Positions 59,533 through 64,000 of a stretch of 64,000 bases of DNA are shown one piece after another; the stretch's first letter is position 1; every line of letters starts with the position of its first letter. The notes beneath the pieces are model-generated. The model did not search any database and was not told the origin of the DNA. It was given only the letters and a program-made list of their open reading frames with translations. The position numbers and the translations under genes are program-made. Source of the DNA: Bacteroidota bacterium (GTDB lineage Bacteria > Bacteroidota > Bacteroidia > NS11-12g > UBA9320). The DNA lies in the NCBI GenBank assembly GCA_013359235.1, contig JABWCE010000001.1:124001-188000 (forward strand), read 5' to 3'.

Positions 59533-60027
59533 ATGAATAAATGGTATGTAATATATACAAACCACCATCACGAAAAAAAAACGGTGCAACTATTACAACA
59601 AAATGGTATAGAATGCTTTTTGCCATTGCATAAAGTTAGAAAAAAATGGTCTGATAGAATTAAAATTGTAGAAGTGCCACTTTTTAAATCTTATGTTTTT
59701 GTAAGAATTACAGAAGATGAAAAATTGAAAGTTAGGGAGGCACAAGGAGTTATTAATTTTGTGTATTGGCTTGGGAAACCGGCAATAGTTAGAGATTCGG
59801 AAATCGAAATAATTAAAAAATTTATTGGAGAATATCAAAATATAATTGTAAAACCTATAAAATTAAAAGTTAATGATAAGGTAAAGGTAGACAGTGGTCC
59901 AATGATGGATTATACAGGAAAAATTTTGAAATGTGGTAAAAACAAAGTTAAAGTAATTTTTGACTCTTTTGGAATCGAATTAAGAGCAGATATACATATA
60001 AATAATTTAGTACCTTTGCCCGATTAA
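59533..60027 (+). CDS. UpxY-type transcription antiterminator (NusG paralogue)
   Basis: A 164-residue NusG-family protein. The NGN domain occupies about 1-105 (WYVIYTNHHHEKKTVQLL, FLPLHKVRKKWSDRIK, PLFKSYVFVRI). The KOW domain occupies about 115-160 (DKVKVDSGPMMDYTGKIL). It is specialised rather than the housekeeping NusG, as judged by position at the head of an export operon. Such proteins help RNA polymerase read through long polysaccharide operons. The Wza-like gene follows 8 bp later. Confidence 0.92.
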   Translation: MNKWYVIYTNHHHEKKTVQLLQQNGIECFLPLHKVRKKWSDRIKIVEVPLFKSYVFVRITEDEKLKVREAQGVINFVYWLGKPAIVRDSEIEIIKKFIGEYQNIIVKPIKLKVNDKVKVDSGPMMDYTGKILKCGKNKVKVIFDSFGIELRADIHINNLVPLPD

Positions 60028-60035
60028 GTAAAAAA

Positions 60036-60797
60036 ATGAAATTATTTTTTAAAACTTTAAGTTTATATTTTATAATATTAATTATTAGTTCTTGTGGCAA
60101 GAAACTAATTTATTTTCAACAAAAAGATGATGATAAAAACAAAACCAAATCTATAACTGTATCAAAACCTGAAAATGTTAGAGATCATATAATTGAACCT
60201 GGCGATATTGTAGGTTTAAAAATAATAACAACAAATAAAGAACTTAATGATGAATTTTTGAAATACACAAGTACTGCAACGTCAAAAGAAATGCCGGTTA
60301 ACGGGTTAACAGTTTCTGAAAATGGTACAATATTTTTACCATACATCGGAAGTTTAAAAATTGCAGGAATAAGTATTTCGGAGGCAGAAACTCTTGTAAA
60401 AAATGAACTTGGCAAATCATTAAACAATTTTACAGTTGAATTTACTTTAAATTCATTTAGGGTTTCGGTTTTGGGAGATGTAAGATCACCCGGAATTATT
60501 AATTCGCCTGGTGATAAAATGACTATAATTGATGCTTTGAGTTTAAGTGGCGATTTAGGACCCGATGCAAACAGAAAAAACATAAAAGTTATTAGGCAAA
60601 ACGGAGATAAAAAAAATGTGTACTTTCTTGATATATCATCAATAGAAATTTTCAAATCAGAAGTTTATTACTTAAAATCAAATGACATTGTGTATATCGA
60701 ATCTCTAAACAGAAAGTTTGTTAAAGACAATTTAACTTATATAGCCTTATTTGCCACAGTGATAAACACACTTGCAATATTGATAAGATTGTATTAA
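60036..60797 (+). CDS. polysaccharide export lipoprotein (Wza-like)
   Basis: A 253-residue outer-membrane export protein. The signal ends in a lipobox (IIISSC-GKK). A Poly_export domain is at about 55-140 (IIEPGDIVGLKIITTN, NGTIFLPYIGSLKIAG, LVKNELGKSL). A SLBB domain follows (SVLGDVRSPGIINSPGD, DALSLSGDLG), and the C-terminal membrane helix is ALFATVINTLAILIRLY. It forms the outer-membrane pore for capsule or exopolysaccharide. It sits between the antiterminator and its kinase partner. Confidence 0.95.
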   Translation: MKLFFKTLSLYFIILIISSCGKKLIYFQQKDDDKNKTKSITVSKPENVRDHIIEPGDIVGLKIITTNKELNDEFLKYTSTATSKEMPVNGLTVSENGTIFLPYIGSLKIAGISISEAETLVKNELGKSLNNFTVEFTLNSFRVSVLGDVRSPGIINSPGDKMTIIDALSLSGDLGPDANRKNIKVIRQNGDKKNVYFLDISSIEIFKSEVYYLKSNDIVYIESLNRKFVKDNLTYIALFATVINTLAILIRLY

Positions 60798-60813: not shown

Positions 60814-63279
60814 GTGGAAATCAACAATTCAGAAATAGAAAACAGACAAAGCGAAGGTATAAATTTTAAGTCAATAATAGGGCTTTTAAGGGTTTACTGG
60901 ATACTTTTTGTAGTGTGTATTACAATCGCATTAATAGATGCTTATATAATAATAAGGTATTCAACTCCATATTATAAAATACAAAGCGATATTTTATTAT
61001 CAAACCAAACAAAAGGAAAAGAAGGAGCAGAAATTTTAGGAGCCCAAGGCTTTTCTGATGCTTTTAACCCATGGGATCCCACCTATGTAAACGATAAAAT
61101 TGCAACTATTAAATCATTAAAATTTGTTAAACCAGTTATTGAGAAGCTCAGATTTGACCATACTTACATAACTAAAGGCAATATTAAATCATCAGAAGTT
61201 TACGAAAAAGAACTTCCAATTAAACTATATTACAGACCATTTGAACCTTCTGTTTATAATTATAAATTTTTTATAAAACTAAACAAAAACAGTTTTTCAA
61301 TCAAAGTAGTTGATGGCGAAGAAGTTATTTACAATAATAAGAAAAATTTGTATAATGACTCTATAATATTTAAAAATTGTGTTTTATATATTGAATCAGA
61401 TGTTAATTCTGAATTATGGGATAAAACATTAAACATTGGAGATTTAACAGTAACATTACAAAACATAAATAATGTTGCAAAAAGCTATACATCAAACCTA
61501 AATGTAACGCAAAAACCCAAAACAAAAATTTTAGAATTATCAATTGAAGCTAGCGAATCAAAAAAAGGTTTGGATTTTATTCAAGAACTTTCAAAGGCTT
61601 TTATTGAAAAAGGGTTAGAAGAAAAGAAGCAAAAATTCAGCAGTTCTCTTATTTTTATAAACGAACAATTAAAAAAAGTTGAAGATGCTTTAGATAATTA
61701 CGAATTTGATCTTGAAACATTTAAAAAAACAACCGGATTATTTGATTTTCTTTCAGAAAGTGAAATAATGCTCACAGAAAAAACATCATTAGAAGAGAAA
61801 CTTAAAGAACAAGAAATATTACTAAAAAAAGTTATTGCTCTTAAAGATTATGTTCAAAATCATCAGGATTTATCAGGGCTTGCACCATCAACTTTTGGAA
61901 TTGCTGACCCATTATTAGTGCCACTAATAAATGAACTTAGCAAAGTAAGTATAGAACTTAATGAACTTGGATATGATTTTAACCAAAATACCATACAATA
62001 TAAAAAATATAAACAAAGATATACTACCGCAAAAAATTTATTAATTGAAAATATTAATAGTATAATATCAAGTACTAATTCTATTCTTAGCTCATATAAA
62101 ACAGCTTTAGCTACCCTTAATGCCAAAGTGAACAAATTGCCCGATTATGAGAGAAAAGGATTGGGAATGAAAAGAAAATCAAGTATTCAAGAAAAAATAT
62201 ATTTGTTACTATTAGAAAAGAAATTCGAAAATGAAATTGCAATTTCAGGAACTATAAGCGATTATTCAATTTTGAATGAAGCTGAAATTTTAGGTCAAAC
62301 AAAACCAAATTCAAAAAATATTTATCTTTTTTCAATTATCTTAGGTATTTTGGTTCCTGCACTCTATATTTATCTTAAAATATTTTTTGACAATAAAATA
62401 AGAAGCCGTGAACAAATTGAAAAATACACAAAAATTCCATTCTTGGGTACTATACCACATCATCATTCTGATAATATAATGGTTTTTAAAGAAAACTCGA
62501 AATCAATGATTGCTGAATCTTTCAGAAACCTTAGATCAAATATTATGTTTATGTTAAAAAATGAAAAACCTTCAAATGTAATTCTTGTAACATCAACCAT
62601 TAGTGGCGAAGGTAAAACATTTTGCACTTTAAATTTGGCTCAGGTGCTTGCAATTTCAGGAGTAAAAGTTGTTGTATTAGGCTTAGATTTAAGAAAACCC
62701 AGATTGCATTTGAGTTTTGATTTGAAAAATGATATCGGTATAAGCACTTTTCTAACTGGTAGAGCTGAGTTAGAAAATATTATTTTTAAAACTAATTATG
62801 AAAATATTGATGTAATGCCATCTGGTCCTGTACCTCCCAATCCTTCAGAGCTTATCCTTACTGACAAAATGAAAGATTGTATTGAAAAATTAAAAAGTGA
62901 ATATGATTATGTTTTATTAGATACAGCACCATTAGGCCTGGTATCTGACTCTATTGACCTGATGAAAATTACAGACCTGAACATCTATGTAATGCGTGAA
63001 AGTTATTCAAATATTGCTTCGATAGGGTTTGTAAATGAATTTTACGAAAAACAAAATATTAAAAATATTGGAATTGTATTAAATGATTCAACATTTGCCG
63101 GTATAAAATATGGCTATGGCTATGGTTATGGTTATGGTTATGGTTATGGTTATGGTTATGGTTATGGTTATGGTTATGGTTATGGTTATGGTTATGGTTA
63201 TGGTTATTATGATGACGATAGAAAAACTAATAAAAAGAAAAATTGGCTTAATAAAATAAACAGCATATTTAAGAATTAA
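60814..63279 (+). CDS. Wzc-like polysaccharide co-polymerase and BY-kinase with (YG)16 tail
   Basis: An 821-residue inner-membrane protein read from GTG at 60814. The N-terminal Wzz domain is flanked by membrane helices (about 28-48 and about 506-524), with a long periplasmic coiled coil between (about 260-450). The cytoplasmic kinase domain has Walker A SGEGKT with K601, Walker A' GLDLRKPR with D625, and Walker B LLDTAP with D703. The tail is 16 Tyr-Gly units (766-797) plus Tyr-Tyr, then a lysine-rich end. Tail tyrosines are autophosphorylated in this family and control chain length. The perfect repeat is unusual: most family members have irregular Tyr clusters. Confidence 0.93.
63109..63204 (+). 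repeat. hexanucleotide microsatellite encoding (Tyr-Gly)16
   Basis: Sixteen in-frame six-base units: the first two TATGGC, then fourteen identical TATGGT, ending before TATTAT. Being a multiple of three, length changes add or remove Tyr-Gly pairs in the kinase tail without shifting frame. Confidence 0.97.
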
Positions 63280-64000
63280 TGGAAAATAAAATAGGTATTA
63301 TAGGGCTTGGATATGTAGGTTTGCCTTTGGCAGTAGAATTTGGAAAAAAATTTAAAACAGTTGGGTTTGATATTAATTCAAACCGAATAATGGAATTGAA
63401 AAATGGTGTTGACAATACTTTGGAGGTTGATTCTGATAATCTAAAGTCTTCAAAATATTTAGAATTTACTAATGAATATAAAGATATTGAATTTTGCAAT
63501 TTTTATATAGTTACTGTACCTACCCCAGTTGACAATAATAACAGACCAGACTTAAAACCATTGTTAGGGGCTAGTGAAACTATTGGAAAAGTACTTAAAA
63601 AAGGAGATATTGTTGTTTACGAATCAACTGTTTACCCTGGCGTTACAGAAGATAAATGCGTTCCTGTACTTGAAAAAGTTTCAGGATTGAAATTTAATAT
63701 TGATTTCTTTTGTGGATATTCTCCCGAAAGAATAAACCCGGGAGATAAGGAACATACTGTTACAAAAATTTTAAAAATAACATCAGGTTCAACTCCACAA
63801 ACTGCAGAAAAAGTAGATAATTTGTATAAAACTATTATTACCGCAGGCACCCACAAAGCACCAAGTATAAAAGTTGCCGAAGCTGCAAAAGTTATTGAAA
63901 ATTCGCAACGCGACATAAATATTGCCTTTATAAATGAATTGGCAAAAATATTTCACACTTTAGGCATTGACACAAATGAAGTATTAGAAGCTGCAGGTAC
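63279..64000 (+). CDS. nucleotide-sugar dehydrogenase (TviB/WbpA-like), 3' end outside window
   Basis: At least 240 residues, open to the right edge. The ATG shares one base with the kinase stop codon. The Rossmann motif is [18 protein letters not shown] (residues 5-22). [27 protein letters not shown] and [16 protein letters not shown] follow, typical of UDP-N-acetylhexosamine 6-dehydrogenases rather than UDP-glucose dehydrogenase. [19 protein letters not shown] precedes the catalytic cysteine region, which is not in the window. It makes an acidic sugar precursor for the polysaccharide. Confidence 0.93.

Follow-up and report, generated by a model that had tools for sequence, protein, structure and literature searches.

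Tyrosine-glycine tails of Wzc-like kinases in a class of Bacteroidota: a probably constrained unit number, possibly made mutable in one lineage by a pure hexanucleotide repeat

It is a question in the field how many tyrosines the tail of a capsule kinase must have and whether polymer length is set by their number, and a 2025 review finds the number and arrangement of tail tyrosines poorly conserved (PMC12220298). The locus described here raises this question in a particular form: a Wzc-like kinase encoded in the window (the whole 64-kb stretch of DNA that was analysed) ends in 16 Tyr-Gly units followed by Tyr-Tyr, fourteen of them spelled by one and the same hexamer. A preliminary description took this tail for a possible tunable switch, in which slippage would change the tyrosine count in frame and the capsule length by degrees. 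The analyses presented here point, with moderate confidence, to a phospho-ratchet tail of constrained length whose unit number became mutable in this lineage when the hexamer recently expanded; the tail is probably not an evolved capsule rheostat. The features concerned are collected in Table 1.

Table 1. Features of the kinase locus and of the repeat tract, in window coordinates
Feature	Position	Strand	Basis or remark
UpxY-family transcription antiterminator, head of locus	59533-60027	+	NF033644, 136 bits, cut-off 100
Wza-like outer-membrane polysaccharide export protein	60036-60797	+	Poly_export and SLBB
ORF of the Wzc-like kinase	60814-63279	+	GTG start, 821 aa
Probable Walker A STISGEGKT (residues 594-602)	62593-62619	+	Motif and alignment
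Walker A' variant (residues 619-628)	62668-62697	+	Gly623 replaces first Asp of DxD
Probable Walker B region VLLDTAP (around residues 699-706)	62908-62931	+	Motif and alignment
TATGGC x2 (YG units 1-2)	63109-63120	+	Sequence read directly
TATGGT x14 (YG units 3-16), in-frame hexanucleotide microsatellite	63121-63204	+	Sequence, Tandem Repeats Finder and codon simulation
TAT TAT, Tyr-Tyr after (YG)16	63205-63210	+	Sequence read directly
C-terminal extension, acidic then basic/amphipathic	63211-63276	+	Common to the class
Nucleotide-sugar dehydrogenase (TviB-like)	63279-64000	+	First of the sugar-precursor/Wzx/Wzy/glycosyltransferase genes running past the window

The tail array as a whole occupies positions 63109-63210, with (YG)16 at residues 766-797, Tyr-Tyr at residues 798-799 and 18 tyrosines in total. 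It heads the Tandem Repeats Finder list for the window (score 184 vs 64 for the runner-up), no further strong tandem array was found in the 60 kb beyond the window, and the kinase tail is the only array of at least four YG units in the 2.65-Mb source genome. Its purity might be sought in codon usage alone, an AT-rich genome picking TAT and GGT without any slippage, and both are indeed common codons in the window (35 long ORFs give TAT 0.68, GGT 0.32 and GGA 0.39). Yet GGA, the commonest Gly codon, is missing from the tail, and GGA and GGG are absent from all 62 YG units of four genus members, in whose neighbouring genes these two codons account for about half of the Gly residues. Under the codon usage of the window, fourteen identical units have a probability of ~6e-10, and the longest identical run in 200,000 simulated 16-unit arrays never exceeded 10. 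Codon bias therefore cannot account for the purity of the TATGGT run; this explanation was rejected on both the probability and the simulation, retains next to no credibility, and leaves a pure short tandem repeat beyond chance. In a shifted register, positions 63121-63204 read as (GGTTAT)n, a telomere-like G-rich repeat, in which two-tetrad quadruplexes could form and could promote slippage.

The 821-residue protein combines Wzz, GNVR and P-loop kinase regions in one chain, and two transmembrane segments flank its Wzz-type periplasmic domain. It matches TIGR01007 (eps_fam, polysaccharide biosynthesis tyrosine autokinase) with 152.6 bits against a cut-off of 108, and its GNVR and Wzz profile scores lie slightly under their cut-offs. 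The best PDB match by sequence is Wzc (7nhr, E 8e-44), and a fold search also returns Wzc structures (E 3e-34). The structure model (pLDDT 71, pTM 0.42) supports the overall fold only, its kinase-tail region being too uncertain for the tyrosine pocket to be placed, and the tail is predicted to be disordered (pLDDT <50 over residues 758-821). Judged from these matches, the gene is a Wzc-like (PCP-2a type) polysaccharide co-polymerase/BY-kinase and a predicted autokinase.

Its surroundings agree with this assignment. The UpxY antiterminator stands directly ahead of the exporter gene, which is the arrangement of Bacteroides capsule loci, and the kinase gene is followed by those for a TviB-like dehydrogenase, a TviC-like epimerase, a Wzx flippase, glycosyltransferases and a Wzy_C polymerase/ligase protein, completing the genetic context of the Wzc family (wza, Wzx, Wzy, glycosyltransferases). 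No LMW-PTP was found in the source genome; the cognate tyrosine phosphatase would be supplied genome-wide by a single CpsB/CapC-type PHP gene (L285, at G000:C43:13575-14171; 144.8 bits, cut-off 27), which is unlinked to the kinase, lies on a separate contig and adjoins DNA polymerase III gamma/tau-like and sugar isomerase-like genes. Since the Wza-like exporter, dehydrogenase, Wzx, Wzy, glycosyltransferases and PHP phosphatase are all present, the kinase locus is a polysaccharide locus of the Wzx/Wzy type, with a kinase of its own and, elsewhere in the genome, a candidate phosphatase.

E. coli Wzc, in which each tail sits in the active site of the neighbouring subunit, cycles between octamer and monomer (PMC8285477). 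The mechanism is a ratchet, in which the active-site tyrosine is ordered by the tyrosine two residues ahead (PMC11986026); phosphorylation begins at the C-terminal end, the octamer comes apart once about four events have taken place, and a phosphatase resets the tail (PMC8285477, PMC11986026). Polysaccharide chain length responds to these phosphorylation cycles (PMC12220298). The preliminary description is sound in part: its tract is exact to the base, the Wzc-like identity of the kinase is borne out by TIGR01007, by the Wzc structure matches and by the Wzx/Wzy locus, and published work connects polymer length with the phosphorylation of the tail (PMC8285477, PMC11986026, PMC12220298).

The window kinase shares with E. 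coli Wzc (PCP-2a; K30 and K-12) the Wzz/GNVR region joined to a BY-kinase, probable Walker A and B motifs, the position after wza in a Wzx/Wzy locus, and a Tyr-rich C-terminal tail of YxY spacing. Its YY and acidic residue match the Y-x-Y-Y-D end of the K30 tail (numbering of PMC11986026); K30 Wzc has seven tail tyrosines and the window kinase 18 in a strict (YG)n. Other differences are the Gly in Walker A', the missing counterparts of E675 and K701, the extra acidic/basic extension, and the PHP phosphatase of the source genome as against the LMW-PTP partner of E. coli Wzc. The Walker A motif lacks the first Gly of the review's GX5GK[S/T] pattern; K30 Wzc aligns with the window kinase at the catalytic Lys601 and at the Walker B Asp703, and DTAP agrees with the Walker B pattern (four hydrophobic residues, then DX2P). 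Walker A' is defined as four hydrophobic residues followed by DXDXR (PMC12220298), from which the window kinase departs: it has VVVLGLDLR, the stretch reading GLDLRKP with Gly for the first Asp. The same Gly occurs in 100 of 207 Tyr-tailed kinase rows (L009-L284, including a few duplicate loci), which indicates a large variant group rather than a broken gene; Glu, Ser, Asn or Ala takes this place in 20 more of the 207. By alignment, two residues of the YxY ratchet are also replaced: the pocket acid E675 of K30 Wzc falls on Ser736, and K701, of the D28-K701 ion pair, on Ala, with Ser and Ala at these places in the family. A different acid could stand in for E675. As E675, K701 and the first Walker A' Asp are not conserved, the E. 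coli ratchet may not apply here in every detail. Most kinases of the class have a short extension past the YG tail, often with a Trp/Phe-Lys-Arg amphipathic stretch, and this acidic/basic extension may serve membrane binding or tail docking.

Tyr-Gly tails are also known from streptococci, where the short [YGX]4 tail of CpsD is the autophosphorylation target of the capsule kinase; compared with the window kinase, CpsD has about four units, is a separate kinase polypeptide (PCP-2b) and has no pure DNA repeat. Ptk1 of Porphyromonas gingivalis, likened here by its description in the available part of PMC4082711, is a single-chain kinase with a C-terminal Tyr-rich cluster, adjoins a wza-like gene and autophosphorylates in vitro; in contrast to the window kinase, no microsatellite is reported for Ptk1 in that part of the source. 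Php1 of the same species parallels the phosphatase of the source genome as a PHP-class partner of a Bacteroidota BY-kinase, according to the available part of PMC6759763.

A survey of 395 class genomes, sampled evenly with one genome per species, showed at least one array of at least six YG units in 156 of them. Of the 182 arrays collected, 181 are BY-kinase C-termini: 171 have an automatically detected kinase mark upstream, and ten of the other 11 were recognised by eye, one of these ten having scant upstream sequence and being judged on the downstream part. The only non-kinase array (L120, genome G088) belongs to a Tyr/Gly/Asn-rich protein with (TATGGT)5. Unit numbers across the collected arrays are mostly 6-10, with a range of 6 to 18. 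The orthologues of the window kinase within its genus have 14, 14, 16 and 18 units; elsewhere in the family the tails are alike but interrupted. In tails collected by kinase homology Tyr is better conserved than Gly, as would be expected from the YxY ratchet of E. coli Wzc: the YxY spacer is non-Gly in 77 of 591 cases, and a residue other than Tyr occupies the middle of YGzGY in 26 of 378. None of the open papers found by the literature searches describes long (YG)n tails. The (YG)n protein tail itself is common in the class, and the unusual part is the state of the DNA.

In nearly all relatives the synonymous codons of the YG tails are mixed. Adjacency was evaluated in 139 arrays unselected for purity, by shuffling units within arrays: identical neighbouring units number 213 vs 244 expected (z -2.8), and units two or three apart are slightly more alike than shuffled ones (z ~2.4). 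Both the deficit and the excess weaken after similarity clustering or redundancy removal, and the safe statement is that the identity of adjacent units is not enriched in the class. The proposal that slippage homogenises the tails class-wide was rejected, adjacent identity lying below the shuffled value, and array length shows no significant correlation with homogeneity (rho 0.13, p 0.12). The codons tend to alternate, with fewer identical neighbours and more identity at 12 and 18 bp, which could reflect selection against slippage, codon-pair effects or old 12/18-bp duplications.

Pure runs do occur. Runs of at least five identical units are found in 9 of the 139 unbiased arrays, and (TATGGT)>=5, that is, at least five units, in 13 of the 395 class genomes, with 0 matches to the reversed control pattern; several families of the class have pure TATGGT runs, almost all of them inside these kinase tails. 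The longest pure run besides the 14 units of the window is 9 among the arrays collected, and the window array is the purest long array seen. Two further arrays, L204 (G091) and L275 (G104), have pure runs of nine and six units built of other hexamers, TATGGG and TACGGT, so the pure-repeat phenomenon is not tied to TATGGT. Purity is not kept even within the genus, where the longest identical runs are 14, 7, 5 and 2, and one member (G003) has GGT in all 18 units with TAT and TAC mixed. The genus seems to have gone through several rounds of re-expansion from a TAYGGY unit, with transitions eroding the array afterwards, and we infer that the window stands at the fresh end of it.

The number of units behaves differently from their codons. 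With similarity measured over the 80 residues beside the tail, 16 independent kinase pairs are at least 90% identical there; 12 of them agree in YG count and the mean difference is 0.31, whereas random kinase pairs agree in 18% of cases and differ by 2.29 on average. In the former pairs, units in register are identical in 21 of 85 cases, where shuffling leads one to expect 15.9 +/- 3.2, and L170 and L171, identical over the 80 residues and in the tail protein, differ in the codons of most units. Equal counts despite such synonymous turnover suggest that the count is stabilised by selection on the protein; a low rate of length mutation could equally explain the constant counts of scrambled arrays. 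Pairs in which one array has at least four identical units in a row differ by 2.0 units vs 0.72 for other pairs (p 0.004; 8 and 46 pairs), overall similarity being alike at 0.80 and 0.81. Scaled to length, the difference is 20% vs 9% (p 0.011 in a rank test, 0.017 by permutation), and it is stable at other cut-offs, only 5-8 independent pure-array pairs standing behind the result. The greater divergence of pure-array pairs supports slippage as a length mutator, and purity would thus appear to bring length instability. L119 (G120), with ten units of which nine are pure TATGGT, and its congener L156 (G187), with six scrambled units and 85% identity beside the tail, offer a natural tail-length contrast within one genus.

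The favoured reading combines these patterns with what is known of E. coli Wzc. The (YG)16-YY tail would then be a continuous substrate track for trans-autophosphorylation, in which nearly every tyrosine has another two residues ahead, as a YxY ratchet needs; it may be threaded register by register, C-terminal end first, through the neighbouring kinase and be reset by the PHP-type phosphatase of the CpsB/CapC family, and the number of units could set the count of available steps or binding registers. Selection at the protein level would hold the YG number within a lineage-specific range, and scrambled synonymous codons would guard the DNA against slipping in most relatives. In the window lineage the array would have been recently re-expanded from one TATGGT unit, its unit number thereby becoming mutable in in-frame steps of 6 bp, possibly by slippage that is still under way. 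As a step adds or removes one site in about seventeen, its effect on kinase cycling would be slight, and most of the variation in the tolerated range may be near-neutral.

Graded, in-frame variation, which the preliminary description set apart from classical phase variation, has a precedent in E. coli tolA, where the number of in-frame coding repeats leads to graded phenotypes and clonal populations give rise to contractions with a frequency of 6.9e-5 (PMC3477136). The preservation of frame on slippage by 6 bp stands. The repeats of tolA differ from the present ones in that they belong to a stress-tolerance gene, are not phosphorylation sites and contract in a RecA-dependent manner (PMC3477136). 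The six-bp VNTR O157-10 of E. coli O157:H7 has the unit length of the window tract; for the strains tested, the available part of PMC3777172 gives it mutation rates of 1.3e-4 to 4.8e-4 per generation, which climb above ~13 units. The six-bp loci of this organism differ in serving as typing markers, for which that part gives no graded function. If as mutable as these repeats, the window array would vary in a large population. The view that the repeat is slippage-prone gains from the greater differences in unit number between pure arrays and their relatives. The class-wide feature is a protein repeat and no DNA microsatellite, which speaks against an evolved tuning switch.

Whether selection maintains the pure hexamer because in-frame slippage spreads tail lengths, and with them polymer lengths, is a separate matter. 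The recurrence of pure TATGGT runs in several families, nearly always in these tails, the faster divergence of pure arrays in length and the long tails of the window genus would all suit such an evolved rheostat, but long pure runs are rare in unbiased arrays, purity is lost within the genus, adjacent units are not enriched for identity and close relatives keep their YG count. The evolved switch of the preliminary description is not supported by these results and is, in our estimate, unlikely; unlikely, too, is a related reading for Wzc kinases of the Bacteroidota type, in which (YG)n is a countable ratchet track that sets polymer length, scrambled codons lock the count and a pure hexamer unlocks graded, heritable capsule-length variants. 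Given the small effect of one unit and the close counts of near relatives, a constrained count is preferred over a dedicated rheostat.

The opposite possibility, that the array did expand by slippage and that its length past a handful of tyrosines is functionless and drifts, is just as unlikely as the rheostat. It draws on the spread of counts from 6 to 18 across the class and on E. coli Wzc, which works with far fewer tyrosines and for which it matters how far the tail is phosphorylated, not which tyrosine is (PMC11986026); drift is nevertheless hard to reconcile with the 75% of close pairs that agree in count despite synonymous turnover, against 18% of random ones, or with the better conservation of Tyr than of Gly. 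Very unlikely is a tail that acts mainly as a sticky low-complexity segment, with Tyr as stickers and Gly as spacers, which would cluster kinases or recruit partners until phosphorylation dissolves the contacts. Its long, regular and predictedly disordered Tyr/Gly composition and the conserved acidic/basic extension behind it are what such a segment might show, yet its position and YxY periodicity fit the substrate tail of Wzc, which has been seen in the active site of the neighbour (PMC8285477). The constrained phospho-ratchet tail, recently made mutable, thus remains the favoured reading.

The class-wide pattern, in which counts are kept, codons are scrambled and pure arrays are more variable, is a more general result than the tract of the window. 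The class provides a natural series of near-perfectly regular tails of 6 to 18 YG units, whose counts outlast synonymous turnover, and the few lineages with a mutable count add to this series, so that a direct test of how tail length acts by dose becomes feasible. Should slippage indeed tune the polymer, the surface polysaccharide of these bacteria would vary in a graded manner, not on/off.
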